A stretch of DNA of 32,750 nt from Candidatus Vecturithrix granuli (GCA_000739535.1 DF820465.1:1-32750); one strand, 5' to 3'. Counted from the stretch's first letter, positions 20 through 31,925 are shown. Notes: generated from the sequence alone by a model not told the origin. Program-made: numbers and translations.

Positions 20-160
20 TGGTAGCCCAGGGTGTCAGCCCTGGGGCTGAAAATCCGATGTGTGTGCCCTCCCCTCCCCGCGTTCCGCCGCTCGCGGCGG
101 AACGCGGGGAGGGGAGGGGGAACCCGCTTCCTGTCCCAGGGCTGACGCCCTGGGCTACCA
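20..160. repeat. Inverted-repeat element with G-rich hairpin
   Basis: The 27-base end at 20-46 is the reverse complement of 134-160 with one or two mismatches. Between them, 67-91 and 94-118 form a perfect 25-bp stem with a 2-base loop, so the whole 141 bp can fold as nested hairpins. No protein is convincing here. It resembles a REP/MITE-type intergenic element. The bases just outside (5-16 and 167-179) also hold short GC-rich self-complementary stretches. A transcription-termination role is possible, but there is no T-run. Confidence 0.7.
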
Positions 161-264
161 GATTCCGCCCCGTTGGGGCTTACAAGCTTATCCCGAACTC
201 ACGTTATGATAGGGTTTTGGAAAGAATGATACACTGTTCGTAGTCCGCGCTTTAGCGCGAACGG

Positions 265-1460: not shown

Positions 1461-1489
1461 TTGACATGTCCCAAAATGGAAAATATGAA
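1461..1489 (+). promoter_or_regulatory. Near-consensus sigma70 promoter of the MNT/HepT-like pair
   Basis: TTGACA (1461-1466), a 17-base spacer and TATGAA (1484-1489) form a strong promoter. The surrounding ~40 bases (CAGGAATTTCTTGACA, then CCCAAAATGGAAAATAT) recur almost unchanged at 4766-4807, so the promoter lies in a duplicated segment. The start point should fall near 1495-1497, almost on the ATG at 1498, so the first gene may be translated without a leader. Confidence 0.6.
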
Positions 1490-1497
1490 TGAACACG

Positions 1498-1908
1498 ATG
1501 AATAAACGCGAAATGTTGACGAAAACGGAGCCCTCGCCAGATGGATTTGATTATGCCGCAGCGCGGCGGTATTTGCAAAAAAAACAGGAGGCTTCACAAG
1601 CCAGGCGGTTGATCCTCTGGCAGCAGGCCCAGGAGGATGCCCGGAAGATTATCGAGATGATCATCCAGCGCTATGCGCCGCAACGGATTATCCAATGGGG
1701 GTCTGTCCTGGCGCCCGCGCATTTTTCCGAAGCCTCGGATATTGATCTGGCCGTGGCCGGGGTGGATGCATTGGCGTTTTTCCGCCTGTTCGCGGACGCT
1801 GAGGAGATGACGCAGTTTCCTCTGGATCTGGTACGCTGGGAAGAGCTTCATCCCGCTTTTCAGCGCATCCTGACCATGAAAGGAACGGTGATCTATGCCG
1901 CGAAATGA
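1498..1908 (+). CDS. MNT-type nucleotidyltransferase (antitoxin-like)
   Basis: This is a small protein (136 aa) with the DNA polymerase beta-like nucleotidyltransferase core. It has G68-S69 in the context IIQWGSV, then D81-x-D83 (ASDIDLAVAG), and a probable third carboxylate at D110 (FPLDLV). An N-terminal helical extension of about 55 residues precedes the fold, longer than in minimal MNT proteins. It overlaps the next gene by 14 bases, and the pair matches the MNT/HEPN toxin-antitoxin arrangement. In characterised systems the MNT protein neutralises the HEPN RNase, by AMPylation in MntA/HepT of Shewanella. Another ATG lies at 1489, but it overlaps the -10 box of the upstream promoter, so 1498 is preferred. 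ATG 1513 is also possible, and none has a good ribosome binding site. Confidence 0.8.
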   Translation: MNKREMLTKTEPSPDGFDYAAARRYLQKKQEASQARRLILWQQAQEDARKIIEMIIQRYAPQRIIQWGSVLAPAHFSEASDIDLAVAGVDALAFFRLFADAEEMTQFPLDLVRWEELHPAFQRILTMKGTVIYAAK

Positions 1909-2398
1909 ACTCTTAGTGCTGGTAGGCGAGATCACGGAAAGCAAAGCCGTCCTGGATGCCATCCACAGATTGTATAGTTCGTATAAGTCTGCTTTTGTGG
2001 ATGAACAGCAGCGGGATGTGCGCGATGCGGTATTGTTGGCCGATATTCTATGCAACACCTATACCTGCGTCGAAACAATTTTGTTCCGAATATCCAGGGT
2101 CTTTGAGAACCATTTGGACACGCAGCAATGGCATAAAGAGTTGCTGCAAAAAATGCGCATCGAGGTGCCCGGTATTCGCAAGGCCGTCCTGTCTCAAACA
2201 TCCTATGCGCTGCTGGACGAATTGAGACGATTTCGGCATTTCAAACGCTATTATTATGATTTCGAGTATGACTGGGCGCGTTTGGATTATCTGAAATCAG
2301 TCTATGAACGCTTGTTCCCTCTGATTGAGAGGGAGTTGGATGACTATGCGGCATTTTTGCTGCACTGTGCGCATGACGATGAGGAAGGATCCCGCTAA
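1895..2398 (+). CDS. HepT-like (HEPN superfamily) toxin-like protein
   Basis: An all-helical 167-residue protein coupled translationally (14-base overlap) to the MNT gene. It resembles the HepT-like ribonuclease-toxin group, whose signature in family members I recall is an FRH..RHAY-type stretch near the C-terminal third. Here the matching segment is RRFRHFKRYYYDFEYDW (residues 111-127). The Arg is present (R114), but the His of the expected R-x4-H motif appears replaced by Tyr (Y119), with His only at 115. If that alignment is right, the RNase centre may be altered or dead. Family assignment rests on gene order, length and this motif. The exact catalytic status is inference. The stop lies directly before a dispersed repeat. 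Confidence 0.65.
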   Translation: MPRNELLVLVGEITESKAVLDAIHRLYSSYKSAFVDEQQRDVRDAVLLADILCNTYTCVETILFRISRVFENHLDTQQWHKELLQKMRIEVPGIRKAVLSQTSYALLDELRRFRHFKRYYYDFEYDWARLDYLKSVYERLFPLIERELDDYAAFLLHCAHDDEEGSR

Positions 2399-5259: not shown

Positions 5260-5697
5260 TTAGTGTTTTTTCCGTCGTGCCAGCCCAAGCAGTCCGAGCA
5301 CTCCTAAGCCCAGCAAAATCAGCGTACCAGGCTCCGGCACGGCTCCTGAACTAGGCGGAGTAACATTATCAGGAGTATAGCTGGCAGAAAAGCCAGAAGT
5401 AATATTCACTTCCCCTCCCACCAACTCATTAGTATTAAAGGACATGTTCGGCGTATAATCCTCTTCGACATCGCCGCCGGTCAATTCCGGTTCTTCGACT
5501 GTCATGTCATTCGTAGTAAACCCGGGCAATCCTGCTCCCCCACTCGAATTAAATTCCGGCCTGAGCCCAAAGACAACCGTTAAGGTGGTGTCGGGTTCCT
5601 CTGTACTAACGGTTAGCGAGTCCGCGCTGGCAATGCCGCCGGCGACCAGAACAAAGATAACGCAAACACCGATAAAGTATTTACACAAGTTTTTCAT
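5260..5697 (-). CDS. PEP-CTERM sorting domain surface protein
   Basis: A small secreted protein of 145 residues. It has an N-terminal signal peptide (MKNLCKYFIGVCVIFVLVAG, cleavage probably near ASA/DSL). The middle is acidic, Thr/Gly/Asn-rich and low in complexity, with loosely repeated GGxV/EE-TxNMSFNTNE-type units. The classic C-terminal sorting signal follows: VPEPGTLILLGLG, a hydrophobic helix, and a RRKKH tail. In PEP-CTERM/exosortase systems the tail is processed by EpsH-type exosortase, and such proteins accompany exopolysaccharide loci, which fits the neighbouring glycan cluster. No exosortase is in this window. The ATG at 5697 is chosen because AGGAG lies 8 bases upstream. A longer frame reaches 5748 without such a site. 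The protein's own function is unknown. Confidence 0.9.
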   Translation of the reverse strand: MKNLCKYFIGVCVIFVLVAGGIASADSLTVSTEEPDTTLTVVFGLRPEFNSSGGAGLPGFTTNDMTVEEPELTGGDVEEDYTPNMSFNTNELVGGEVNITSGFSASYTPDNVTPPSSGAVPEPGTLILLGLGVLGLLGLARRKKH

Positions 5698-5842
5698 AAC
5701 CAAATCTCCTCTTGAATATATTGCGCATACATTTTGCAACACTGACAAATTATGTCATTGATACTGCAAACTTCTGCACATCCCTATTTTGCATCATCAC
5801 AACGGATCTTGAAAAATGGGCCATTATATACGTCGCAAATCG

Positions 5843-6913
5843 TCACTTTTGTTCAAAAATTGCAAACACCGTATCGCCCGGATTAGCGTAATAGATATTC
5901 TCGATCTGCACTCCGCCAGCCGTTTCCCATCCGGCAAAGTAGGAACCTGCCGCCGGCGTCACGTTCACGTCCACCTGCTTGCCAGCAATATAAGTAATCG
6001 CCAATTCCGTACAGGCCGCATTACATACCTGGGACCCGGCCGTGATCGTTCCTGAGCCGCTGCCGGCCTTTTTCACCACTATCGTTTCCTGGCTGACCGT
6101 CTTCAATGTGGCACCGCTGCTGCCGCTAGCAGGCAAAGTTTCATGACCAGTAGCATACCAGCCGGCGAGCTTCGTATAAGACTTGCCACTAGAATACGTA
6201 AGATCGGCATTTAACGTCCATACTACGCCTCTGCCCTCAGCCGGTGGTCGCGCCCATACGATTCCAGCTTTGCTGCCATTATGACTGAACGCGGTGGCAT
6301 AATAACCCTTCCCAGCACTATAAGACTTACCACTGAGAAAGGCGCCAGCAGCACTTAATTTCCAGACAACTGCTGTCCCTTCATCGGCCGAACGCGCCCA
6401 GAGCAAATAGGCATTGGTCCCGTTATGGACAAAATCAGTGGCATAATAGCCTGGGCCCGCAGTATAAGATTTGCCACTGATAAAATTACCAGCGGATGTC
6501 AGCGTCCAGACCACAGCGCTCCCTTCAGCCGCTGGTCGTGCCCAGATCATGTACCCATTGCTGCCGTTGTGGCTAAATCCAGTGGCATAATAACCCTTCC
6601 CTGCAGTATAAGTCTTACCACTGACAAACCCGCCACTTGCATTCAACGTCCATAAAGTAGCTGTTCCCTCGTCAGCGGGCCGCGCCCATAATAAATAGCT
6701 ATTGGTTCCATTATGAGCAAACTCTGTGGCATAATAGCCAGAGCCAACACTGTACGATTTAAAGACACTATAGCCGCCGCTACCATCCAGTCCCCAGATC
6801 TCAGCCTTGCCCTCAGTAGCAGCATACGCCACATCGTTACTGCCTACTATGGTTAATAAAATAACCATCATTAGTAGATTAATTACCCCTACAATACTGA
6901 TTTTTTTCTTCAT
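5843..6913 (-). CDS. Secreted five-repeat (propeller-like) protein with InlB-B-like C-terminus
   Basis: The 356-residue protein starts with a signal peptide (MKKKISIVGVINLL..., cleavage near AYA). Five tandem units of about 48 residues follow (roughly 33-270). The consensus is VVWTLxxxGxFxSGKxYTAGxGYYAT, then FxHNGxNGYLLWARPAxEG. Five Trp-rich units of this size recall five-bladed beta-propeller lectins such as tachylectin-2, but that fold is an inference. Residues ~272-356 form a domain like the bacterial InlB B-repeat/Flg_new group (VKKAGSGSGTITAG, two Cys in CNAAC, FAGWETAGG, FAIFEQK). The same repeats plus tail end the much larger upstream protein, so this may be a stand-alone paralogue of its binding module. 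An AAGGAGA ribosome binding site precedes the ATG. No membrane anchor or sorting signal is visible at the C-terminus. Confidence 0.85.
   Translation of the reverse strand: MKKKISIVGVINLLMMVILLTIVGSNDVAYAATEGKAEIWGLDGSGGYSVFKSYSVGSGYYATEFAHNGTNSYLLWARPADEGTATLWTLNASGGFVSGKTYTAGKGYYATGFSHNGSNGYMIWARPAAEGSAVVWTLTSAGNFISGKSYTAGPGYYATDFVHNGTNAYLLWARSADEGTAVVWKLSAAGAFLSGKSYSAGKGYYATAFSHNGSKAGIVWARPPAEGRGVVWTLNADLTYSSGKSYTKLAGWYATGHETLPASGSSGATLKTVSQETIVVKKAGSGSGTITAGSQVCNAACTELAITYIAGKQVDVNVTPAAGSYFAGWETAGGVQIENIYYANPGDTVFAIFEQK
6110..6815 (-). repeat. In-frame 144-bp tandem repeats (5 units)
   Basis: Five direct repeats of about 144 bp encode the 48-residue Trp-rich units of the secreted protein. 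They are clearly diverged from each other (for example WTLNASGGF, WTLTSAGNF, WKLSAAGAF), so the array is not recent. The last unit is degenerate (WTLNADLTY ... AGWYAT). The same unit occurs at 7440-8180. Confidence 0.8.
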
Positions 6914-7177: not shown

Positions 7178-10100
7178 CTATTTTTTCTCAAACACTGCGT
7201 ACACAATATCCCCTGGCTGAGCGTAATAGATATCTGTATAAAGGATACCTTTTTCATCCTGCCAGTAGCCAAAGACAGAAGACTCATCGGGTAGGATCTG
7301 TAAGATAACACTCTGCATATCATTGTACGGCAGTATCAGTTCCTGGCACCCTGCTCCACAGATCTGATCACCAGCGATAATCGTACCATTTCCGTTACCG
7401 GCTTTTCGAACCATAATGTAAGCGACTGCGTTTTCATCCGCTTTTATCCTGGACGATTTCACAACATTCGCCATCTGATCATAGCCAGTGGCATACCATC
7501 CCGATCCAACTGTGTAGAGCTTCCCATTGAGAAAATTGCCGCTATCCGTCAAGGTCCACACCACGGATTTGCCTTCCGATGATGGCCGAGTCCAGAGTAA
7601 GTATCCGTTTGTCCCGCTATGGGCAAACCCAGTGGCATAATACCCTGGTCCGGCGGTGTAGAGCTTGCCGTTCACAAAGTTCCCTCCGGCGTCCAGTGTC
7701 CAGAGAACGGCCTTGCCTTCGGCTGCCGGTCGCGCCCAGAGCAGATAACCATTACTGCCATTGTGTGCAAAATCTGTGGCGTAATACCCCGGTCCGGCAG
7801 TATAGAGCTTGCCGCTCACAAAATTTCCCTTGGTATTTAGGGTCCACAGAACCGCCCGGCCTTCCGCGGCCGGTCGCGCCCAGAGCAGATAACCATTCGT
7901 CCCTGTATAGGTAACTCCGGTAGCATAATATCCTGGTCCGGCGGTGTATAACTGCCCGCTCAAGAAGCTACCACTTGCATCTATCGTCCAGATGACCGCC
8001 CGACCTTCCGCGGCTGGTCGAGTCCAAAGAAGATAGCCATTCGTTCCGGGATATGCGACTTCATTGGCATACCAGCCTGATCCAACTGTATAGTTTTGCC
8101 CTCCCAGGAAATTACCCGCGTCATCCAAAGCCCACACGACAGCCGAGCCTTCTGCCGCTGGTCGTGCCCAGAGTAACCGGCCTTGCGGACCACCGCCATA
8201 CAGTGTCAATGTATAGGGATTTTCATCAGAATCGTTATTCGCAATAGACACTATTGCCGTACGGATGCCTGTCGCACCAGGCGCAAAACGAAGGTCGAAG
8301 GTCACAGACTCACCCGGAGCAACCGGAGATGCAGGTTGCCGGGTCACCGTAAAATCAGCAGCATGGGTACCGCTAATCGCGACTCTCGGTGAGCCGCTTA
8401 AGATCAAATCCGCAGTTCCGGCAGTATTTTCGATTGTAAAGGTCTTGGTCAGGCCAGATCCAACATTTACCATACCAAAATTATACTTGCTTGCCTTCGG
8501 AAGAGGTGTAGAACCTTGTTTTAGATGAACTTCAATAATATTATCATGCAATTTTACAAGAATTATTGAGGTAAATGGCTGCAAAGTCACGATGCCGTTC
8601 GCAGCCTTCTGATTGAGATCCTGGTAATGGCCCACCCCCAAATCAAAGCTTTTTGGGCTTTTGGTATCATTATACAGGATAACGGAACGGGGAGAATCGC
8701 CAGCGTTGAGTGTAAACCAATTTTTCTTTGAATTCCCATCCATGCCACTATATGCCTGCCATTCCGTCAGCGTTCGTCTGCCATCCCAGTTTGTGAGAGC
8801 AATATTTTTGTCCACAGAGGGATGAAAGAAATAGTTATTATTTGAGGCAAGCAGATTACTCATTTTTTCAACAAAAAACGTCCACGCTTTCTCGTTCAAA
8901 CCATATAACCTGTTGCTCGCAGATGTCACTCGACTTATACTCGCAGTTAAGCCAAGATCATCAACCTGGATAAGTCCGGCATATAATGATCCTTCTGAAG
9001 CCGCATTATAGACCGTATTATACTCGATTCGTCCGGTGGATTTTCGGAATAAAATCCCTGCGTTCGTCGCATTAATAATGGTGTTATTTGACAGCGTAAC
9101 GTCTCTTGAATACCCATCAATATAAAGCCCGACTCCAAACTGTTGCCGGTACGTTGCGATTACCCCATCGACATTGCCGACACTATCAAGAATAATGTTA
9201 TTCTTCAGCGTCACATTATATACCTTTGTCGAAGTTAAGTCCGTACTCACCTGATAAAACGTTCTGATGCCGCCACAATCTCCCTTTGCATAACAGGCTT
9301 GCTCAATCGCATTGTATTGGACAACATTGTTAGGGCCAAGAATATCAATACCTGTATAGGCGGATTTTTCGATTCGGTTATATTGAACGGTATTGCTGTG
9401 TCCGGAATCCTCAACAAGGTGTCTCCGGATTTCAATGCCTGTCCCGTCTTCATTACAACTTTCAGTACCGCTGATCTCGCACCCCATACCGGATTTGCCC
9501 AGGTTCTCGATCAATCCGATATTTTTAACGGAGTTATCCTGGATTGTTGACTCAGCCAAATAGCCCATAATGCCAAAATGGTTAGCACCTTCAATAACGT
9601 TATTGAGCAACGTCATATTACGTCCTCCGCGATAACCATTTCGCCCATTCGTCGCATCCCAGATTCCGGTACTTAAATTTATTCCTGTGGCGTTCACATC
9701 TCTAATCGTTGTGTTTTGAATCGTGATATGATGGTACACATCCCCTTTGAGAGATAAGGGGGTGCCGATGCCGTGATTAAACCAATTTTTGATCTCAAAA
9801 TTTTCAATAATCACATACGCTATAGGCAAGAGGGAGACATGTCCCAACATAATACTGCCATGTGTTAGAGGAGAACTATCCTCAAGGATGACGGACCCCT
9901 CCATATTCGCTGGCGGACCGCTGACAGAATATACATAAACTTTCTTATTGGTGGCATCGTAATACCACTCTCCATCCTGATCAAGGGTACCTAAATGATT
10001 GTTAAGAAAGTAACCCCAACCGGCACATCCATCCCTACAGCTTATGGTCTCGTTCAGTGTTAATGTGGTACTACCAGTTCCTACGACTTCACGGTTGAGA

Positions 10101-10726
10101 ATCCTCCAACGCTGACTTTTTATGTGAGCGATTGCCCCTGTCCAATCTTGTGGAGGGAGTGCGCTGTCCGTAATTTGAGTTGTTGTTGGCAAACTGTCAA
10201 TTGTTGAATATCCTCCGTTGAAATTGGCATCGTCGCTAACGTCGAGATTCGGCCAGCGTCCCAATAATAACCGCTGGCCATCTCTAAAAAGTTGATTAAT
10301 GCCTGAAGGAAATTTTCCGGAGTTTGTTTCTGCTGAAAGATCGGCGACATAGATGTTGCCGGAAGATAATGTCCAATCGGCAATAGCCTGCGTTCCCAAA
10401 AAGATCGGTTTATTGGTACAGCCTGCAGGGTAACTCCCAAAGGTAATCGGGGCGCTTGCCGTACCTGACCAGATGATTCTCAAGGTTTCAGCGCGCCAGA
10501 CATCCCCGCATTTGAACAAAACCTTGTCGCCCGGGTTCAAAGTTAAGGCATTCACTTTTCCGATCGTCTTGAAGGGGAAAGTCTGCGATGTCCCCGAATT
10601 AGTATCATCCCCGGTAGTGGATACATAGTAGGTTGTCGCCGTTGCGGTATTAACCGCGATTCTAAATAGCGTTAACGTCACTACCACTAAAACCTTCAAA
10701 GATATTTTTAAATTGTCTGTATTCAT
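7178..10726 (-). CDS. Secreted parallel beta-helix protein with Ig-like, five-repeat and InlB-B-like modules
   Basis: A 1182-residue exported protein. The N-terminal hydrophobic signal segment (~8-30) is followed by TTYYVSTTGDDTNSGTS, the usual opening of secreted right-handed parallel beta-helix proteins. Residues ~45-720 continue with N-I/V-I-rich coils (VQYNRIEKSAYTGIDILGPN, VTLSNNTIINATNAGILF). This fold is shared by polysaccharide lyases and epimerases, but no catalytic triad could be fixed by eye. Residues ~740-845 look like a choice-of-anchor-D/ASPM-SPD2-Hydin Ig-like domain (FGMVNVGSGLTKTFTIEN ... SIANNDSDENPYTLTL). Five 48-residue repeats (~850-1095) and an ~85-residue InlB-B-like tail follow, as in the downstream 356-residue protein. 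The first repeat is preceded by an extra RLLWARPAAEG strand and the last lacks it, the pattern expected for a ring-closing (Velcro) propeller. It may bind or modify the exported glycan. Confidence 0.85.
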   Translation of the reverse strand: MNTDNLKISLKVLVVVTLTLFRIAVNTATATTYYVSTTGDDTNSGTSQTFPFKTIGKVNALTLNPGDKVLFKCGDVWRAETLRIIWSGTASAPITFGSYPAGCTNKPIFLGTQAIADWTLSSGNIYVADLSAETNSGKFPSGINQLFRDGQRLLLGRWPNLDVSDDANFNGGYSTIDSLPTTTQITDSALPPQDWTGAIAHIKSQRWRILNREVVGTGSTTLTLNETISCRDGCAGWGYFLNNHLGTLDQDGEWYYDATNKKVYVYSVSGPPANMEGSVILEDSSPLTHGSIMLGHVSLLPIAYVIIENFEIKNWFNHGIGTPLSLKGDVYHHITIQNTTIRDVNATGINLSTGIWDATNGRNGYRGGRNMTLLNNVIEGANHFGIMGYLAESTIQDNSVKNIGLIENLGKSGMGCEISGTESCNEDGTGIEIRRHLVEDSGHSNTVQYNRIEKSAYTGIDILGPNNVVQYNAIEQACYAKGDCGGIRTFYQVSTDLTSTKVYNVTLKNNIILDSVGNVDGVIATYRQQFGVGLYIDGYSRDVTLSNNTIINATNAGILFRKSTGRIEYNTVYNAASEGSLYAGLIQVDDLGLTASISRVTSASNRLYGLNEKAWTFFVEKMSNLLASNNNYFFHPSVDKNIALTNWDGRRTLTEWQAYSGMDGNSKKNWFTLNAGDSPRSVILYNDTKSPKSFDLGVGHYQDLNQKAANGIVTLQPFTSIILVKLHDNIIEVHLKQGSTPLPKASKYNFGMVNVGSGLTKTFTIENTAGTADLILSGSPRVAISGTHAADFTVTRQPASPVAPGESVTFDLRFAPGATGIRTAIVSIANNDSDENPYTLTLYGGGPQGRLLWARPAAEGSAVVWALDDAGNFLGGQNYTVGSGWYANEVAYPGTNGYLLWTRPAAEGRAVIWTIDASGSFLSGQLYTAGPGYYATGVTYTGTNGYLLWARPAAEGRAVLWTLNTKGNFVSGKLYTAGPGYYATDFAHNGSNGYLLWARPAAEGKAVLWTLDAGGNFVNGKLYTAGPGYYATGFAHSGTNGYLLWTRPSSEGKSVVWTLTDSGNFLNGKLYTVGSGWYATGYDQMANVVKSSRIKADENAVAYIMVRKAGNGNGTIIAGDQICGAGCQELILPYNDMQSVILQILPDESSVFGYWQDEKGILYTDIYYAQPGDIVYAVFEKK
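7440..8180 (-). repeat. In-frame 144-bp tandem repeats of the beta-helix protein (5 units)
   Basis: Five direct repeats of about 144 bp encode the C-terminal Trp-rich units. The central ones are the most alike (LYTAGPGYYAT and GTNGYLLWARPAAEG recur), suggesting internal duplication or gene conversion more recent than in the array at 6110-6815. The motif order is the same in both proteins. Confidence 0.8.
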
Positions 10727-11079: not shown

Positions 11080-12837
11080 CTACGGTCTTTCCTCCTGGAA
11101 TTGATCACAACAACCCGATCGATCAGGGCATCTCAGACTATCGCCAGGAACAAAGAGTTGACGTCGCCGGTATGCTATCGTGTTATTCCCATTGTTGATA
11201 ACATAGCAAACTTTGCAGACCGCCGGAGCATTCTCCGTTTTATGATCCATTCGGAGTTTTTGCATAGCAAAGCAATTCCAAAATGATTTGAATGAACTGT
11301 TGCTGAAATTTATAACGAACGGCGCACCTGGATTAAGACATGGCACACAATTTCCCTCGTAGTTGATTCGGGCTACATCATAAAGATATCGGCATGCTCC
11401 GACTATATAATTGTCGACGGGAGCCAATTCTTCAAAGGGCAGAGGCATCGATAGGGCAATTCCACAGTCCCTTGCTTTGGCATGGGCCTGGTGGAAAACT
11501 TCATTGTAAATGTTCGGACAGTTCACGACACTCATGGGCCAATCCTCTTCCCGAAAGACGATCCCAAAGGATACTCGGAGGAAGTCCGCGCCAATATCTG
11601 CTGCTAATTGGATCATGTTGGAAACTTCGTGAATGTTTATACTGAAAAGGGTCATGGAAATTGCCAGCTTAAATGCCGCGCTGTGCATTTCGTCCCTTAT
11701 CCTGTTGATTTGCCGAAAACCAGCAAGAACTTGCACTAGTTTAGCCCCTGGACGCAATTGCGCGAATAGCAGCGGGTCGCTGCTGTCAATGGAAACTTCG
11801 AGGTAGCCCAGCACCTTTACTAGGCGTCTGCAAAGCGTATCACTCTGGAGCAGCGTCCCGTTCGTTGTGAGACTTAAGGCCACATCATATTCTTCCAGAG
11901 CGTTGATAATTCTGGACAAATAGGGCGACAGGAGAGGTTCGCCGACGAGCGATATATTGACATTCTCCGCAGTGGGAAACAGTTCGGCGATGGCTTTTTC
12001 CAGAGTCTGGTCGTCCATAGAGGGACATTGGTTCAAATCGCGCCCCAAATACTGACGGAAACAGCTAACGCATTTCAGATTACAGAGATTAGCACAGTCC
12101 AAAATAATATCGCGAGGATATGCACTCACTTTGGCTTTATTGGTGAACCTTTCGAGTAAGGCAAGCGATCTATTTGTGGCTCGCCAATGTTTGAGTAATC
12201 GCCGCCGAATGTTCCGATTGCGCCTCATACTCAGGAAGGCAAAGCGGCACAGATACCACCGCACCTGTAAAAGCCACATCGTCACACTCAGGTATTGCCA
12301 AATAAACAAGCGGTAACTACCATAATGTCTTTTGCTCCAGGGAAGATCCTCTGCCACTCGGATTGGAATAACCAGCGGACCCTCGGCGGTGAGTTCGATG
12401 AACCTGACATTGTGGACAGCCATACGAATAGTAAGTGTGTGTGCGCCAATCTCGCAAGGAGCAACGAATTTGAAGAATACCGTCATGCTTTTGTCTGGGA
12501 GAACCTCTTCCTCGATAGTCTCTCCATTTCCAATAAACACCCCGTCACAATAGAAGGCAACGTTCACTGGCATTTTGACATCATGATTTGTGTGCCAGCT
12601 TTGTTTTCCTGTATTCTTAAGGCGTATGCCCAATAACCAATGAGAAACTGCGAGCAAACAATAAGGGATATTATGATGTACCACAGAGACCTGCCAGTCC
12701 TCAGAATTTCGACATGTCGAATGCTTGCCCACAGCAAGCCAGGTGGAGAAAATTAGATGGAAGGCACGTTTTATGCTCTTGTTACAATAGGATACAAGCC
12801 GCATGAACGATGACAAACCATGTTGATAAGGATGCAT
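11080..12837 (-). CDS. Radical SAM/SPASM protein with N-terminal NTGxxxW Ig-like domain
   Basis: A 585-residue protein. The radical SAM motif CxxxCxxC is C252-NLK-C256-VS-C259, embedded in DIILDCANLCNLKCVSC. NISLVGEPLLSP is the glycine-rich SAM-binding strand and LSLTTNGTLL a later strand. The C-terminal part has spaced cysteines (GACRYLY, GNCVPCLNPG, AVCKVCYV) as in SPASM domains that hold auxiliary Fe-S clusters. Before the SAM barrel, residues ~50-160 form an Ig-like domain (VSVVHHNIPYCLL, KNTGKQSWH, FYCDGVFIGNG, GAHTLTIRMAVHNV). The same module occurs twice in the aminotransferase fusion encoded just upstream. Substrate is unknown. SPASM members modify peptides or sugars, and a role in making a glycan decoration or tailoring a surface peptide is inference from context. 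The start at 12837 has no strong ribosome binding site. Confidence 0.8.
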   Translation of the reverse strand: MHPYQHGLSSFMRLVSYCNKSIKRAFHLIFSTWLAVGKHSTCRNSEDWQVSVVHHNIPYCLLAVSHWLLGIRLKNTGKQSWHTNHDVKMPVNVAFYCDGVFIGNGETIEEEVLPDKSMTVFFKFVAPCEIGAHTLTIRMAVHNVRFIELTAEGPLVIPIRVAEDLPWSKRHYGSYRLFIWQYLSVTMWLLQVRWYLCRFAFLSMRRNRNIRRRLLKHWRATNRSLALLERFTNKAKVSAYPRDIILDCANLCNLKCVSCFRQYLGRDLNQCPSMDDQTLEKAIAELFPTAENVNISLVGEPLLSPYLSRIINALEEYDVALSLTTNGTLLQSDTLCRRLVKVLGYLEVSIDSSDPLLFAQLRPGAKLVQVLAGFRQINRIRDEMHSAAFKLAISMTLFSINIHEVSNMIQLAADIGADFLRVSFGIVFREEDWPMSVVNCPNIYNEVFHQAHAKARDCGIALSMPLPFEELAPVDNYIVGACRYLYDVARINYEGNCVPCLNPGAPFVINFSNSSFKSFWNCFAMQKLRMDHKTENAPAVCKVCYVINNGNNTIAYRRRQLFVPGDSLRCPDRSGCCDQFQEERP

Positions 12838-13074: not shown

Positions 13075-16000
13075 CTACAAAACATCCGGAATCTCCAAAT
13101 AGCGCAGGTATTCATCATTTTCCCAGGCTCGAAAGATTATAGGGAGAACGGAAGAAAAGGCTTCAACCGTCTGTTCGTAAGCAGAATGGTCATGGGCGAA
13201 ACAAGGGAGCATGAACCCCTTGAACGTCAGGATTCCGTGTTTGAGGAGTTCTTGTTGCAACAGTGTTCTCAACAGAATCCTTTTCTCACCATCTGGCTCC
13301 TGAAAAGAGAGAGTCATCCGAAATGGCGGACCGATCATCTCTGCTGGCAAACCAATATCGAGGCAAATGGTATTGATGGCGTCTTTTAATTTCCCGCCCA
13401 GAGACCATATATGCCCTGGAATATCGTATTCTGCATAAATCTGCAAGGCTTCCTTTGCGGCGGCAAAGGAGTAAACTTCATCTTTGAATGTGGGTGTATA
13501 GTAGAGCCGGTGCAATGTCTGGTTGAAGATCTCTCGCTTCCCCACTAAAGCTGACAGAGGCATGCCCGCGCTCAGGGCTTTCCCCAAACAGAGCAAATCA
13601 GGAACAATCCCCAGCGCTCGCTGTACGCTGCCATGAAGATAGCGAAACCCTGAGAGAATTTCATCAAAAATGAGCACAGCCCCAGCATCATGGGTCAGAC
13701 GGGCAACCTCCCGAAGATACTCAGGCTCCGCATCTCGGAGAGGGCCGTTCACCCCTTCGACAGGCGAGGAAGGTTCGAGCATAACAGCGGCAATATTCCC
13801 GGCATGTTGGTCGAGAATCGCCTTTAAAGTAGAGGTGTCCAGATAAGGAAATTGAAGAGTCATCGGCTCAGGCGGTTCTGGCACACTTGATTGTCGAAAG
13901 CCGCACTGTACTGCAAACCAATCCTGCCATCCATGATAGCCGCAGACTAAAACCTTTTGTTTTTGCGTATAGGCCCGCGCCATACGGACTGCTGCGGTGC
14001 AAACATCCGAACCATTTTTGCCAAACAGAACCATATCGAGTTCAGGAAACAGGGCGCAAAGCTTTTCTGAGACTTCCATCTCAAGCGTATGGATAAGCGT
14101 GATAACTCCCCCCGAAGAAGAAAGTTCGCGGGCAATTGCCGCCTGAATGCGTTCGTTGGCATATCCAAGCAACGAACATCCCCATCCCATCACATAGTCA
14201 ATATACTCCCGCCCCTCCAGGTCCTGGATTCGGTATCCCTTCGCTGATTTTGCAAACAAAGGATATGTAAGGGTATCTCCGCTCAAACACACCCCCTGGC
14301 TTGGAGCAAAAAACCAGAAATTTCGACGCTCCGCAATTTCCCGCATCTGTTCTGAAGCGGTCTGCTCCCGCGCCTGAAGAGTCACAAGGAGTTTCAGAGG
14401 GGCGTACCCACAATTCTCGAACATTGTCACATTGTGAGTCACCATATCTAGCTTCAACTCGTGTTGCCCGGTGCATGCCGGGAGCTTTGCCGTGAGCGCA
14501 ATAACTGTGCTTTCCCCTGGTTTCACCTCTTCCCGGAGAGAGCGTCCGGTTACAAGATGTTCCCCGTCTAAAAAGAGGGCCAGCCCAGTAAAATGATTAT
14601 CAGCAGGATCGCGGTACCATGTTGCTGTTCCTGTATTTTGCACTTTCACGCGAAAACACCGAACCGAATTTCCCTCGAGAACAGTTGGAATATTATGTTC
14701 CAGGTAACAAACTGAATAAGGCTGAAGAGGAGGAGAAGTCTGAATATCCATAGCACGTGTCTCATGCAGAGATGAGGGAACGCCATATTGCGGAGTGCTC
14801 TCTCGGCATAAGAATCTCAGGTTACGCACAACAGCTTGTACATCAGGAAATCCGACAACCGCATAATCAACAGAAAGCTGTGGACAACCATGTCCGCTAA
14901 AAAGAAATTTATTCTTCTCAAAAAGATCCAGGGTGATGCAGTGTTTGCCGTGCCTGAGCGGCGCATCGAAAGTGAAAGCAAAATAGACCCGCTCGCCGGA
15001 AGGGACATCCATCCGAAGGCGAATGTTCTTGTACCATGCTCCGTCCAGATAGACGGCCAATCCCACAGTGCATTGCTCGTCCTTGCCGTCAGCATGCCAA
15101 TAATGTTGTCCGGTGTTACAAACATACACACGCGCCGAAACTCGTGAACCGGCTCGGACAGAGCGTGGAAAATCCCATGAAATAAATTGCAAGGCATACG
15201 GTTTTTTTGTCACCATAGGAGGGTAAAAATTGATTCCGGGAACAGAGCCGACCTTTAGCAGTTCCAGCATTTGCTCATGAAAACATATAAGTTCCTTGCG
15301 AATATCGATTCCCTCAGGACAATAACACGTCATCTGCGTACAGCGACGGCATAGACTTTCCTCATCTGGGTGTAACTTGAAATACAAAACCGGATCAAAA
15401 TTTTCATAATTGACTGAACGGCTCATATTAATATAAGCTGCGCGAAAGAGCCAGGAGATCGATAGCCCCTGACTGCATGTGTGGTCACACTTCCCACATC
15501 GGCTACACACCGATTGTTTGAGAATCGCTATATGTCTATGGACTTTTTCCCATTCATTTTGACTGAGCGAAAAGTTTCCATGCCCGGCCAGAGCGTTTTC
15601 GGCGGCTTCTTCAACTGAGGCTGTTCCAGGAAGAACGCAGGAGATGATGTTTTCCGATAATGTGGTTCTGAGAATATCGCTGGCTGTTATCGCTGAACAA
15701 TCACAGGCAAGAGGAGCATATCGTGGGAAAGCCTTTGCCTGACATAAAAGCCCACCCCCTAAAGGTTCCATAATCATAAGCCCCAAATCCTTTTCCTCGA
15801 TAAGGGGAAATATCTCTTGCTTTAGGAGAGGAATGTTCTCAAATTCCCATTTTCCTTTTACTCCCGGCGGGGGAACAACGTGGTCAAACAGAGTATCCGG
15901 GTTATAGGTCAGAAGGTGGAAACCGAGAAGATTGTATGAAAGCATCAGCACATCAAAGACATCTCGTTCGATGATCGTTTTAATGTGAGATGGCTGGCTG

Positions 16001-16437
16001 TGGGTATTACAGAAGATAGCGCCGATTCGCCCTTCTGCCTTTTTTTGCTGCAGAAACTCTACCAGCCCGCCTTTCCCCCATACATTTTCCCCAAATCGTT
16101 CCCGATCATACAATGAGGCAATTCCGAACAGATCAAGCCGATCGGTTTCAAAGGCCGCACAGGAACGTTCAAAGATTTGTTCGAAGTATTCCCGCGTGCC
16201 CCAGCCCTGGGCACATGTAAGAATCTTTGGATGAGGATGGCATTCCCGGCGTGCTGCCGTAATGAGCTTCTCAATACCTTCGTAGTCGGGAGAGGTGTGA
16301 ACGATGTTCACGCCAAGCTGAAAGCCACGTTTGAGGGTGTCGATCGCCTGCCGTTCTGGCACCAGACGGAGTTGACAGGTTCCGAAACCGACGGCGGAGA
16401 CATAGAGTTCGGAACGCCCCAGGCGACGATAATTCAT
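13075..16437 (-). CDS. Aldo/keto reductase-like / Fe-S / Ig-Ig / class III aminotransferase fusion
   Basis: The product is about 1120 residues. Residues 1-~300 are an aldo/keto reductase-like barrel (NYRRLGRSELYVSAVGFGT). Against the usual tetrad, Asp (FDTA) is His in VHTSPDY, Lys (TK) is Cys in LTCAQ, and His (xLH) is Ala in FGIASL; only Tyr seems kept. Residues ~305-375 carry CSRCGKCDHTC and CRRCTQMTCYCPEGIDI, for one or two Fe-S clusters. Two Ig-like domains follow (~425-510 and ~585-680), each with NTGxxxW and (L/V)xLDG-type strands. Residues ~700-1120 are a class III aminotransferase like glutamate-1-semialdehyde aminomutase (GYHGWQDW, FDEILSGFRY, PLP lysine K953 in LGKALSAGMP). ATG 16437 is preferred to 16485 because GAGAGGGG lies upstream. 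Such aminotransferases in surface-glycan loci make amino sugars or sugar-like amines. The actual substrate is unknown. Confidence 0.85.
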   Translation of the reverse strand: MNYRRLGRSELYVSAVGFGTCQLRLVPERQAIDTLKRGFQLGVNIVHTSPDYEGIEKLITAARRECHPHPKILTCAQGWGTREYFEQIFERSCAAFETDRLDLFGIASLYDRERFGENVWGKGGLVEFLQQKKAEGRIGAIFCNTHSQPSHIKTIIERDVFDVLMLSYNLLGFHLLTYNPDTLFDHVVPPPGVKGKWEFENIPLLKQEIFPLIEEKDLGLMIMEPLGGGLLCQAKAFPRYAPLACDCSAITASDILRTTLSENIISCVLPGTASVEEAAENALAGHGNFSLSQNEWEKVHRHIAILKQSVCSRCGKCDHTCSQGLSISWLFRAAYINMSRSVNYENFDPVLYFKLHPDEESLCRRCTQMTCYCPEGIDIRKELICFHEQMLELLKVGSVPGINFYPPMVTKKPYALQFISWDFPRSVRAGSRVSARVYVCNTGQHYWHADGKDEQCTVGLAVYLDGAWYKNIRLRMDVPSGERVYFAFTFDAPLRHGKHCITLDLFEKNKFLFSGHGCPQLSVDYAVVGFPDVQAVVRNLRFLCRESTPQYGVPSSLHETRAMDIQTSPPLQPYSVCYLEHNIPTVLEGNSVRCFRVKVQNTGTATWYRDPADNHFTGLALFLDGEHLVTGRSLREEVKPGESTVIALTAKLPACTGQHELKLDMVTHNVTMFENCGYAPLKLLVTLQAREQTASEQMREIAERRNFWFFAPSQGVCLSGDTLTYPLFAKSAKGYRIQDLEGREYIDYVMGWGCSLLGYANERIQAAIARELSSSGGVITLIHTLEMEVSEKLCALFPELDMVLFGKNGSDVCTAAVRMARAYTQKQKVLVCGYHGWQDWFAVQCGFRQSSVPEPPEPMTLQFPYLDTSTLKAILDQHAGNIAAVMLEPSSPVEGVNGPLRDAEPEYLREVARLTHDAGAVLIFDEILSGFRYLHGSVQRALGIVPDLLCLGKALSAGMPLSALVGKREIFNQTLHRLYYTPTFKDEVYSFAAAKEALQIYAEYDIPGHIWSLGGKLKDAINTICLDIGLPAEMIGPPFRMTLSFQEPDGEKRILLRTLLQQELLKHGILTFKGFMLPCFAHDHSAYEQTVEAFSSVLPIIFRAWENDEYLRYLEIPDVL

Positions 16438-16504
16438 CCTGCCCCTCTCTTCGACTTCACGTTGTGAAGGTTTATACATAATCATCGTTCGTTTAACAAT
16501 GGAT

Positions 16505-23099: not shown

Positions 23100-26000
23100 T
23101 TATACAAGGTGTAAACGACGAAACACTTTTACAAACAATTTCTGCTGCAATTCATTCAGTTGTTGCTGAATTCGGACGCGGTCGGTTTCACTCTCGGTCA
23201 ACCGCGTCTGAAGTTCTTCAATCACCTTCAACCGTTCGGCGCGGTCGGTGTCACTTTCGGACAGAGATGTTTGTAATTGTTGAATGACCTTCAATCGTTC
23301 GGCGCGGTCGGTTTCGCTTTCGGACAGAGATGTTTGTAATTGTTGAATGACCTTCAACCGTTCGGCGCGATCGGTTTCGCTCTCGGACAGAGATGTTTGT
23401 AATTGTTGAATGACCTTCAATCGTTCGGCGCGATCGGTTTCGCTCTCGGTCAAGTGCGTCTGAAGTTCTTCGATAACTTTCAGGCGGTTAGCGCGGTCGG
23501 TATCGATCTCGGCTAACTGTTCATGAAGTTCCTGGATGACCTTCAGTCGTTCGGCGCGGTCGGTTTCGCTCTCGGTCAAGCGCATCTGAAGTTCTTCGAT
23601 GACTTTCAGGCGGTTAGCGCGGTCGGTATCAATCTCCGCTAACTGCTCATGAAGTTCCTGGATGACCTTCAGTCGCTCGGCGCGGTCAGTTTCGCTATAT
23701 TTCAGAAACTCTACTGTTTTGATACAGAAATTAAAAAGCTGCTCGTATGTACCTTTTTCTTCAACAACTTTATAATCTCCTTTCCCTTGTAAGATATCAT
23801 CCACTATAGGCATGATATGTTGTAAAATCAATTCAGCAGGTAACGAATTGATACAATACGTCTCGTTAAACAGGCAATTCCAACTACAGTAGAAGCAAGG
23901 GAGGGGCGCGACAAACACTCGTCCTCTGGTCGTACACGGCGCAAAACGAGGCCAGTGACCTCCGCCAAAGATCGCAAACACCGGGATATTCAGGGCAGCG
24001 GCAAAGTGCATCAGGCCGGTATCGTTTCCTAAATAGCAGCATGCTTTCTGCGCTAATGCAGCTATCAGAGGAATTTCGCCATCTTTTCCTATCCAGCATA
24101 CGGGGTTTGCCCCGTATTGTCGGGCGAATTCAAGCACATTGTCGAGAATCGGTTTTTCGCTTGTATGGCCAATGAGTAAGGCGCGCATGTCGTAAATTTT
24201 TTCAAGCTCTGCAAGGCCGGCCGCAAAATGTTCGGCCGGCCATTGTTTGATCCGCACAGTGGCGATACCCGCAGGACAGCAAAAGATAAAACGCCCCGCT
24301 GGCAATTGAAAATCTGCCAGGATCTCTTCTGCGCGTGTTTCAATGTCTGGAGGAATGACAAGCTGAGGCTGAGGCAAGGGCGACGTTTGTCCGCTGAGTC
24401 GTTCCCACAACACTTGATATTTGGCAGTCTCATGGCTTCTTTCTTCTACTAGAACGATTTCATCGTATGGGCATCGGCTGAATGCTTGTCCCAACGCCGT
24501 CAAGGTTTTTTGCAGTTCCGCAGTCATCTCATGGCCGTGACCTGCGGTGATCCGTCTGGCAGACGAACACCGCACAGCCAAAAGATCGTCAATCCAGGTG
24601 CGATTGTACGCCGTTGTGAGCAGCAGATCATAGGAATCATCTTGAAAGGTGTTCAGAAAAGAGAGCACATTTTCTTGATTCGGTTCATTCTTATAGGGAT
24701 GAATCCTGATGGTTCTCCACTGGACTCGTTCAGGGAACAGGGATTGTAATTGATCGTAACCTTCTCGCACGAGCAGCGTTATTCTGGCATCCGGGACAAA
24801 ATCGAGCAAGGCTTGCAGAAAGCCTTGCAGGAGCACAATATCACCAAAGGTATCGAAGCGCGGGATCAGGATATTACGGCATGATTGCAGATCAAATTGC
24901 TCAACGTTCACCTGTTTCTCAGTTTGGTTTTTCATGTCAGCATGTTGCTTTGTTAAGATTGCTGCCCCGACCACATAATTGTGATGCGGCGCAGATTGTA
25001 AGTGCCATTGGATGAATTCAGCACAATCTTCAATATTCCAGTGCGGTTGTTGTCCGTCGTTGTCAAAGGCCGGATGATTCCAAATCCATTCTTCAAATTC
25101 CTTCATGGTTAAGGCTTTCCCATTCCATTCCGGAAAGGTCATACCCATGTCCGGTTCACAAATATCAAAAGAAATCGCCAATGTTCCACCGGGGTTTAAT
25201 ACTCGCGCCACTTCGTTGACGGCGCGAACTTTATCAGATTGGTGTTCAATCACCGAAAAACTTGTGACCACATCAAAGGCGTCATCGGCAAAGGGCAAAA
25301 TTTCATCAGTGACAATGCGCCAATCAACCGTCAAGCCGGTTTCCTGTTTGATCTTTTCCCATGTCGGAATCCATTGCGCATCAGTTTCAACCAGAGTCAC
25401 CTGTGCGCCTAATGATGCGAAAAACCAGGGCATGGGGCTGAGTTCGCTGCCAAAATCAAGCACGCGCATATTGGGCCAATCAAGCGAAGATAAGCCATGA
25501 AACCAAAGCCAGGGATATTCCCAGACTTTGGACCAGTTGGTAAATGTACGTAGTGAAAACTGGGCTGCAAGGGCATTCAACTGCTGCATAAACCGTACAA
25601 ATTTTTCTGATTTTACTTCTGCAACTGACACTAAGGCTAATAAGGGAACGGGCTGCTCTCTTCTACTTTTCATCGTGTTTTGCAGTGAAACATTCACCTG
25701 TTCTATGATAGGAGCCAATAAATTTTTATAACGGTTAATAGTTGTGTCTCTCAATCCCAATAAGCGGGAGCGTTCATCATCCCGTGTATCGAGAAACTTA
25801 CGAACGTGCTGTATAACTTCAATTACATCGAGCTCGCGCACATGATAACGGGGGATACCGATATAATCGCCAATCATAGCCCGGGTATCATTTCCTAAAA
25901 TAATAGCCGGAACGCCAAATCCTGCTGCGCACACAGCGCCATGTACTCGATTCGCCACAACGATATGACATGCGGCATATACATCAAAATAGTCGCGCCA

Positions 26001-26780
26001 ATCTCCAGATAGAAAGATTCGTTCTCCTGGAAGCGCAAATTTTAGCATAAATTCGGCTTCCGGCTGATCGTGCGCAATAAACAGTAATTTTCCTATTTTT
26101 CTTAATTCAGTGCTAAGAGCGAAGCACTGTTTTTGCCACAGAACAGAATCAAAATTTCCACACAGATCATAATGCCCTCCTAATGCCATCAAGTTCACGC
26201 CGATAACCTCATTGGTCGACACACTTATATGACACCGGCAGGCTGCCAGAAATGCCGGGCAGGGCAGCGTTTCATGCGGAAGTTGCAACACCTTGAGTAA
26301 ATGATCAGCCACAGGATCGCGCACGGTTGTCAGAGCCGCCCTGTCTGAGGCGGCTTTCGCAAATTGAACGCAGTCCGCATCATGCAGAAAGGCGTCACCC
26401 ATATCGCCCCAGGGTTGACAACTCCCAGCGCCAAGATTGATAAAAACCGGACGGCCCTCCTTGTTTTTCAGGATACGTTCTTTCCACATCCATTGATGCC
26501 ATGCGCTATTCAATGACGTTGATTGTCCATTCAATAAATGCCAATAGACCGGAGCGCCGCTTTGAATGAACAGATCGGAGTCCCAATATTTATCCTTAAC
26601 AATAAATGTCTCGTTTTCATCAGGAGTGTGCAGGGAAGCTTCCGAAAGTTTGTGGACATATAATGGCGTATATGTCATGTTCAATCTATCCAGAACTGCC
26701 CGGATCCCTTCTCGGATGAATTCATCACCGACGTTCACTCTACGTGATGTTAAAAAACCAATTTTACATACCATCATCAA
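23100..26780 (-). CDS. Polysaccharide pyruvyltransferase / methyltransferase / GT9 / coiled-coil fusion
   Basis: A 1226-residue multidomain protein. Residues ~4-340 match the polysaccharide pyruvyl transferase family (IGFLTSRRVNVGDEFIREGI at the start, HIVVANRVHGAVCAAGFGVP near the end). Residues ~430-600 form a class I methyltransferase (MRVLDFGSELSPMPWFFASL, FDVVTSFSVIEHQ, VARVLNPGGTLAISFD). Residues ~635-1000 are a GT9 ADP-heptose-type glycosyltransferase (IPRFDTFGDIVLLQG, KQWPAEHFAAGLAELEK, LGNDTGLMHFAAALNIPVFA). Residues ~1025-1226 are a 21-residue repeat (ETDRAERLKVIQQLQTSLSES type), three heptads each, predicting a long coiled coil, then a short basic tail. Three enzymes in one chain would couple sugar addition, methylation and ketal-pyruvate capping, and the coiled coil may set oligomer state or chain length. 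The start overlaps wzt by 17 bases; several Met codons (26780, 26777, 26774) are possible. Confidence 0.85.
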   Translation of the reverse strand: MMMVCKIGFLTSRRVNVGDEFIREGIRAVLDRLNMTYTPLYVHKLSEASLHTPDENETFIVKDKYWDSDLFIQSGAPVYWHLLNGQSTSLNSAWHQWMWKERILKNKEGRPVFINLGAGSCQPWGDMGDAFLHDADCVQFAKAASDRAALTTVRDPVADHLLKVLQLPHETLPCPAFLAACRCHISVSTNEVIGVNLMALGGHYDLCGNFDSVLWQKQCFALSTELRKIGKLLFIAHDQPEAEFMLKFALPGERIFLSGDWRDYFDVYAACHIVVANRVHGAVCAAGFGVPAIILGNDTRAMIGDYIGIPRYHVRELDVIEVIQHVRKFLDTRDDERSRLLGLRDTTINRYKNLLAPIIEQVNVSLQNTMKSRREQPVPLLALVSVAEVKSEKFVRFMQQLNALAAQFSLRTFTNWSKVWEYPWLWFHGLSSLDWPNMRVLDFGSELSPMPWFFASLGAQVTLVETDAQWIPTWEKIKQETGLTVDWRIVTDEILPFADDAFDVVTSFSVIEHQSDKVRAVNEVARVLNPGGTLAISFDICEPDMGMTFPEWNGKALTMKEFEEWIWNHPAFDNDGQQPHWNIEDCAEFIQWHLQSAPHHNYVVGAAILTKQHADMKNQTEKQVNVEQFDLQSCRNILIPRFDTFGDIVLLQGFLQALLDFVPDARITLLVREGYDQLQSLFPERVQWRTIRIHPYKNEPNQENVLSFLNTFQDDSYDLLLTTAYNRTWIDDLLAVRCSSARRITAGHGHEMTAELQKTLTALGQAFSRCPYDEIVLVEERSHETAKYQVLWERLSGQTSPLPQPQLVIPPDIETRAEEILADFQLPAGRFIFCCPAGIATVRIKQWPAEHFAAGLAELEKIYDMRALLIGHTSEKPILDNVLEFARQYGANPVCWIGKDGEIPLIAALAQKACCYLGNDTGLMHFAAALNIPVFAIFGGGHWPRFAPCTTRGRVFVAPLPCFYCSWNCLFNETYCINSLPAELILQHIMPIVDDILQGKGDYKVVEEKGTYEQLFNFCIKTVEFLKYSETDRAERLKVIQELHEQLAEIDTDRANRLKVIEELQMRLTESETDRAERLKVIQELHEQLAEIDTDRANRLKVIEELQTHLTESETDRAERLKVIQQLQTSLSESETDRAERLKVIQQLQTSLSESETDRAERLKVIQQLQTSLSESDTDRAERLKVIEELQTRLTESETDRVRIQQQLNELQQKLFVKVFRRLHLV
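23150..23700 (-). repeat. In-frame 63-bp tandem repeats encoding a coiled coil
   Basis: About eight full units plus a partial one of 63 bases encode the 21-residue repeat ETDRA(E/N)RLKVI(Q/E)(E/Q)L. Three adjacent units (about 23270-23455) are nearly identical in DNA, while the first four alternate two types (ETDRAERLKVIQELHEQLAEI and DTDRANRLKVIEELQ). This suggests both 126-bp and 63-bp duplication steps. The array is likely variable in copy number. Confidence 0.85.
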
Positions 26781-31478: not shown

Positions 31479-31925
31479 TTATGCAGCATCGCTTGCGGTC
31501 GGAGGTTGAGGCAGCGGTTCTTCTTCTACGCTTTTTAGCCGGGCGCAAACGGTTGTATAGATGTCCTGGGCAAACTGATAAAATTCGCGGGCGTCTTGCA
31601 ATGTCGGCTTGCCGTTGGGCAAGAGGCCGAATTCGCCGGGATAACGGGAATCTATATACAACAGGTTGAGCCGCCGCAATATCGCCTCGTTCATGTGGAG
31701 TTGAATGGCGGCATCTGACGGGAGTAATTTCTCTAAACGAAGCAGATCATGAGTTTTAGGAAATCCGACGCCGTATTCTTCCAGGAGAGCTTTCAAACAT
31801 TTTTCAACTGCCTGTTGCGCATGAAACGCGGTCACATTGGTCAAATGTTCCTGACGAAAAAGCTGTTCGATCACTTCCACGTCATCGTGAGCGGCCTTCA
31901 GCCACTCGTTGGTTAGTGTTTTCAT
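31479..31925 (-). CDS. HEPN-domain protein (toxin-like partner of MNT)
   Basis: A 148-residue helical protein of the PF05168-type HEPN family. The first helix is LTNEWLKAAHDDVEVIEQL, then FHAQQAVEKCLKALLEEYG, FPKTHDLLRLEKLLP, and LLYIDSRYPGEFGLLPNGKP, the conserved order in this group. The C-terminus (SVEEEPLPQPPTASDAA) is an acidic, Pro-rich tail not usual for the family. It overlaps the MNT gene by 4 bases (ATGA), so the two are translationally coupled. In such pairs the HEPN protein is an RNase-like toxin or binding partner of the nucleotidyltransferase. Activity is not shown by sequence alone. A truncated paralogue lies at 32434-32709. Confidence 0.85.
   Translation of the reverse strand: MKTLTNEWLKAAHDDVEVIEQLFRQEHLTNVTAFHAQQAVEKCLKALLEEYGVGFPKTHDLLRLEKLLPSDAAIQLHMNEAILRRLNLLYIDSRYPGEFGLLPNGKPTLQDAREFYQFAQDIYTTVCARLKSVEEEPLPQPPTASDAA

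Follow-up and report, generated by a model that had tools for sequence, protein, structure and literature searches.

The window, the whole stretch of 32,750 nucleotides from Candidatus Vecturithrix granuli analysed here (GCA_000739535.1 DF820465.1:1-32750), encodes an ABC-2 exporter (Wzm) with a Wzt_C ATPase, several glycosyltransferases, a GDP-fucose-synthase-like epimerase, a pyruvyltransferase/methyltransferase fusion and a sulfatase-family enzyme; by its predicted gene content it is a typical exported-polysaccharide cluster. Within it lies a single open frame of 1136 codons that joins, in this order, an aldo/keto reductase (AKR)-like barrel, two Cys motifs, two Ig-like (FW/NBR1-type) domains and a GSA-type class III aminotransferase with a PLP lysine. 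This frame, its parts and its downstream neighbour are as follows, with residues counted from the first codon of the longest ORF:

13075-16485, minus strand: fused ORF encoding the AKR-like barrel, Fe-S-type Cys motifs, FW1, FW2 and class III aminotransferase; start likely M17 at 16437
15511-16437, minus strand: AKR-like barrel, residues 17-325 (Pfam Aldo_ket_red, PF00248, residues 32-252, E 9.2e-10, 38.5 bits against a cut-off of 24; profile matches to L-galactose dehydrogenase and other AKRs; Foldseek, with a low-confidence barrel model, retrieves AKRs only)
16276-16308, minus strand: NIVHTSPDYEG, in which the tetrad Asp is replaced by His (codon 16297-16299) and the tetrad Tyr is retained (16282-16284)
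16207-16209, minus strand: Gln codon in place of the tetrad Lys, from alignments and profiles
16117-16119, minus strand: Ala codon in place of the tetrad His, from alignments and profiles
15475-15507, minus strand: first Cys motif CSRCGKCDHTC, residues 327-337
15316-15351, minus strand: second Cys motif CRRCTQMTCYCP, residues 379-390, with the spacing CxxCx4CxC
14857-15201, minus strand: FW-like Ig domain 1
14377-14721, minus strand: FW-like Ig domain 2, whose homologue in relatives is the N-terminal domain of their separate aminotransferase gene
13078-14283, minus strand: GSA-type class III aminotransferase domain, residues 735-1136 (Pfam Aminotran_3, PF00202, residues 742-1038, E 5.6e-40, 137.7 bits against a cut-off of 30.5; VIA-align of the full chain, Z 36.2 to 6hbv, an alignment that covers the aminotransferase only and is silent on the other parts)
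13579-13581, minus strand: PLP-binding Lys codon (K969, or K953 counted from M17)
11080-12837, minus strand: radical SAM/SPASM protein encoded downstream, bearing an FW domain at its N-terminus (12355-12699) and a CxxxCxxC motif (12061-12084, CNLKCVSC); PF04055 (36.9 against 29.5) and PF13186 (23.2 against 21.5) are above cut-off

M17 is the probable start of the fused ORF, because the family members open at an equivalent 'MnYrRlG'. The single frame described in the sequence-only reading, with its barrel, Cys motifs, Ig-like domains and aminotransferase, was borne out by the ORF, by Pfam and by alignment, as was the PLP lysine, which is Lys in all 38 aligned aminotransferases.

Several other features of the window were recorded. 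A 1226-aa protein (23100-26780, minus strand) combines pyruvyltransferase-like, methyltransferase and GT9-like domains with a coiled-coil-like repeat end (ESETDRAERLKVIQQLQTSL). Adjoining the polysaccharide locus is a small secreted protein (5260-5748, minus strand) that by eye ends in a PEP-CTERM-like sorting signal (VPEPGTLILLGLGVLGLLGLARRKKH). Two neighbouring proteins (5843-6913 and 7178-10726, minus strand) have in common a repeat of ~40 residues (YLLWARPAAEGRAVLWTL..G.F.SGK.YTAGPGYYAT), and the longer of them also has a right-handed beta-helix region. Two matches to Acido-Lenti-1 RNA (RF01687) lie in opposite orientation at the contig start (1-45, minus strand, and 135-180, plus strand). 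By eye, a nucleotidyltransferase-like gene overlaps another gene (1489-2398, plus strand) and a HEPN-like gene (31479-31925, minus strand) lies at the opposite end of the window; these are possibly toxin-antitoxin genes of the MNT/HEPN type.

Eight members of the family were found, two fused and six with the halves encoded by adjacent genes on the same strand. The fused members are the window protein and L092, a single frame of at least 1059 aa; the paired-gene members are L020, L069, L070, L084, L093 and L094. For example, in L020, a close relative that came from a one-genome-per-species scan, the AKR-Fe-S-FW and FW-FW-aminotransferase proteins are the products of separate adjacent genes. Profile searches of roughly 1,500 genomes added the six members beyond the window and L020. 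All members scored at E 1e-125 or better and the next proteins, where listed, at about 1e-40 or worse; scoring in the larger samples was limited to a few candidates per genome, and some members may have been missed. The relatives' loci come from genomes drawn from the phyla to which a Syntrophobacteraceae, a Chloracidobacterium and a Planctomycetota record belong. No member was found among 295 sampled genomes of the Nitrospirota-type phylum, the AKR part was absent from the three further genomes belonging to the window's phylum, five scans of viral contigs gave no relatives, and the plasmid matches were confined to remote aminotransferases plus two remote AKRs.

Two groups, (L094,(L092,L093)) and window/L070/L020, are common to the AKR tree and the aminotransferase tree. 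The second fused copy, L092, thus belongs to a different clade from the window protein, and it also comes from another phylum. Since the trees put the two fused copies in different clades, the fusion probably occurred twice, separately. An error of assembly or sequencing that joined two ordinary neighbouring genes might be suspected from the six relatives in which the halves are separate, but this is scarcely credible in view of the independent fused copy, the size of the contig (930,752 bases) and the unbroken frame across the junction, where the linker (about 14720-14860) has coding-like base periodicity and zero in-frame stops. The artefact was accordingly rejected. The sequence-only reading would have counted such an artefact, together with separate halves in relatives, against itself; the latter is what the six relatives have, but the former does not hold, L092 being fused as well. 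Judged from gene order, then, the frame is a natural fusion of proteins that elsewhere are encoded by neighbouring genes. The two apparently separate fusions are strong evidence that the AKR-like protein and the aminotransferase work together, and the functional tie between barrel and aminotransferase proposed earlier gains support from these fusions and from the six adjacent gene pairs.

Solved AKRs are the best profile matches of the barrel. In the window protein, the catalytic tetrad reads His-Tyr-Gln-Ala instead of Asp-Tyr-Lys-His. The canonical Lys falls opposite Q93 (Q77 from M17) in MAFFT, in the HMMER profile against solved AKRs and in hhalign; an ungapped single-sequence alignment would set Ala there, and none of these four aligners gives a Lys at this column. 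Of the replacements proposed in the sequence-only reading, His for Asp and Ala for His stand, while Cys for Lys was rejected as a mis-alignment: the three aligners give Gln, and the Cys sits two residues earlier. The same pattern runs through the family. Where visible, the Asp column is His in seven of seven members, the Tyr is retained in seven of seven and the Lys column is changed in seven of seven (Gln in five, Asn in one, Asp in one), and all eight have Ala or Ser in the His column. A two-sequence AlphaFold model of the AKR part reached a pLDDT of 41.8 and a pTM of 0.44, so the tetrad assignment is founded on sequence profiles and not on superposition.

Invariant positions account for 55 of 90 in the loops of the catalytic face against 38 of 215 elsewhere in the barrel, figures that are indicative, the loop limits having been set by eye from the alignment. 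In the window protein PGTASVEEAAEN aligns to the canonical NAD(P)-phosphate/adenine loop (G-T/A..E..EN), and this nucleotide-loop motif, PGT..(E)..EN, is retained in most members. A new conserved set has also appeared in the barrel (in M17 numbering H47, D51, Q77, 'FGI', 'DRE' and 'GE..VWG'). It is very unlikely that the barrel is an ordinary AKR, because the whole family is without the tetrad Asp, Lys and His, whereas all four residues persist in intact AKR-ferredoxin relatives, which supports the earlier proposal that it is no ordinary reductase. It looks repurposed rather than decayed, since nine related AKR-ferredoxins have an intact tetrad and the pocket face is strongly conserved.

The first Cys motif is close to the canonical 4Fe-4S motif; the second has its CxxCx4CxC spacing in all eight members and differs from the canonical CxxCxxCx3CP. 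Fer4 models match the window protein below their cut-offs, and we infer the Fe-S content of the AKR-like protein from the Cys spacing only. The two Ig-like domains are predicted at a pLDDT of about 70-90 in a full-chain AlphaFold model. Against the FW model (PF16158), the L020 copy passes (29.4, cut-off 28) and the window copies fall below (17.8-18.3), and by profile the domain resembles the FW domain of NBR1 (4ole, E 0.025). It is present on the AKR and aminotransferase proteins and on the window radical SAM protein. In the eight member genomes, 17 of 19 FW-like copies fall within the module locus; since 12 of these copies went into the profile itself, the fair test is provided by the three non-contributing genomes, where the count is five of six. 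The two copies outside the locus (L113, G000:C21:353915-354280, and L112) form the C-terminus of membrane proteins that are glycosyltransferase-like by eye, one of which belongs to the window genome.

The aminotransferase failed the HemL equivalog test (TIGR00713, 183 bits against a cut-off of 527; PRK06209, 240 against 486), and its solved fold neighbours include sugar C-6' aminotransferases. As judged from alignments and profiles, the first half of the fused protein represents a distinct AKR-ferredoxin clade in which the tetrad D-Y-K-H has become H-Y-Q-(A/S), and the second half an FW-bearing GSA-type aminotransferase. The nearest aminotransferases outside the family lie in loci with NeuB-type synthases and cytidylyltransferases, that is, sugar-acid loci. 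In L022 and L028 such an aminotransferase adjoins a Pfam-confirmed AKR that retains the tetrad Asp and Tyr, and in L032, L051 and L061 it lies near AKR-like motifs; the pairing of an AKR with an aminotransferase of this kind in sugar pathways thus has precedents. Three NeuB-type loci (L022 6283-8376, L058 7125-9173 and L026 6024-9176) encode the related aminotransferase as a fusion with a cytidylyltransferase, to which L026 adds a GFO/IDH oxidoreductase; these are further fusions within one aminotransferase family.

Wherever the relevant flank is visible, in six loci (the window, L069, L070, L084, L093 and L094), a radical SAM gene adjoins the pair; L020 and L092, cut by contig ends on one side, were left out of this count. 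CxxxCxxC is present in all six of these proteins, and the one in the window shares the FW/Ig-like domain of the fused protein. They fall into at least three types, 40-52% identical within a type and 20-29% between types, and because of this divergence they may differ in function. The radical SAM proteins of L069 (1653-3593) and L070 (5135-7336), which are encoded convergently, begin with an unassigned region of ~260-300 residues in place of the window's FW domain. From its repeated gene neighbourhood, the combination of AKR-ferredoxin, aminotransferase and radical SAM protein is a recurring three-part module.

We tentatively propose, with a probability of roughly 0.4, that this is an FW-tethered redox-amination module, built around a repurposed AKR barrel, whose target is a sugar in a glycan that is secreted or displayed on the cell surface. 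An aldehyde or ketone would be formed at a sugar carbon through oxidation by the radical SAM/SPASM enzyme, with the Fe-S motifs of the AKR-like protein handling the electrons, and the PLP enzyme would add NH2 and so turn the carbonyl into an amine. The FW domains might hold the parts of the module together or hold the substrate. The barrel, with its NAD(P)-phosphate-loop motif kept and its hydride-transfer tetrad gone, would serve as a repurposed pocket for cofactor and substrate and not as a classical carbonyl reductase. Against the glycan reading, L094 sits in no clear glycan locus, and no flavin is evident that could couple NAD(P)H to the one-electron chemistry of Fe-S clusters. It is quite improbable that the bolder version applies, in which a complex spread over several phyla would make an undescribed amino sugar, with the radical SAM protein oxidising the sugar, the tetrad-less barrel relaying electrons between NAD(P)H and Fe-S, and the PLP enzyme installing the amine.

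In the main rival the barrel still catalyses an NAD(P)-dependent reaction at a site rebuilt from His, Tyr and Gln, for instance as an epimerase, dehydratase or dehydrogenase that would itself make the keto or aldehyde substrate, with no need of radical SAM chemistry for the oxidation. The retained Tyr and nucleotide-loop motif, alongside the new conserved residues, would suit such a site, and in other loci outside aminotransferases are paired with ordinary AKRs; however, AKRs tune the Tyr with an Asp-Lys pair that is absent here, and a radical SAM gene stands beside the AKR and aminotransferase genes in six of six loci with a visible relevant flank, so that we consider this reading somewhat unlikely. 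For the oxidising side we favour the radical SAM protein, its electron partner being the Fe-S part of the AKR-like protein. A third view, near that of the sequence-only reading, takes the barrel to be catalytically dead and only a scaffold, or a platform on which the aminotransferase docks. This would account for the missing Asp, Lys and His in every member where these positions are visible and for the fusion or pairing with the aminotransferase in all members, but the replaced residues are themselves conserved (His and Tyr in seven of seven, a small residue at the His position in eight of eight), which makes it less likely. A mere scaffold would also need no catalytic-face loops more conserved than the remaining barrel, and we regard a dead platform as unlikely.

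The substrate, finally, might be a peptide or a small metabolite instead of a glycan, as with the class III aminotransferases of daptide-type RiPP pathways. Peptides are often modified by radical SAM/SPASM proteins, and the aminotransferase has a weak match to the daptide aminotransferase model NF041821; at 83 bits, however, this is far under the 450-bit cut-off, no precursor peptide gene was identified in a non-systematic look, and the best aminotransferase relatives lie in sugar-acid loci. The odds on a peptide or metabolite are therefore long.

Chemistry in the AKR superfamily is held to depend on the tetrad. A whole clade that keeps the AKR fold, the nucleotide-loop motif and the Tyr, with like substitutions at the other three positions, offers a direct case for asking what a tetrad-less barrel can do. 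With two fusions, six neighbouring pairs and a common binding-type domain, the joint function of the partners can be tested directly. As predicted from these genomes, the pairing of a reductase-like barrel with an aminotransferase in distantly related bacteria looks like an undescribed conserved system that probably aminates surface sugars; if the glycan reading is true, it would be an added route to amino sugars.

Each component belongs to a known kind (AKR-ferredoxin proteins, class III aminotransferases, FW domains, radical SAM/SPASM proteins), and our literature search returned no description of the clade, the fusion architecture, the module, or AKR pseudoenzymes with Fe-S parts. Part of the domain order is not new, as AKR-ferredoxin fusions already exist (e.g. 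L085). These COG1453-type proteins, an AKR with a 4Fe-4S dicluster, have the same two-part order and match the family over 350 columns (hhalign, probability 100, E 2e-47). Their tetrad D-Y-K-H is invariant in all nine compared, whereas the family here has H-Y-Q/N/D-A/S, and unlike them it has the second Cys motif CxxCx4CxC, an extra loop after strand 6 and an added FW domain. The solved AKRs closest to the barrel by profile (3e-8 to 3e-14) are L-galactose dehydrogenase and AKR11-type enzymes (8scc, 1ynp, 9yeb), which, unlike the family, have an intact tetrad and are without an Fe-S part.

The GSA-type aminotransferases of NeuB/cytidylyltransferase loci (PRK06209-like) are about 35-41% identical to the family enzyme and have the invariant PLP residues in common with it, and some adjoin an AKR gene; however, they are without the FW domain or a degenerate AKR-ferredoxin partner and are often fused to a cytidylyltransferase. 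HemL and the sugar C-6' aminotransferases (GenB1/GenB2, NeoB) share the fold and PLP site but have no fused domains, and the family aminotransferase reaches half or less of the HemL-type cut-offs. The FW-like domains, in turn, resemble by profile the FW domain of NBR1/ILRUN (PF16158). The bacterial FW proteins described so far are mainly XRE-type regulators (PMC3357945, PMC9233695), whereas those of the present family are carried on redox, PLP and radical SAM enzymes.
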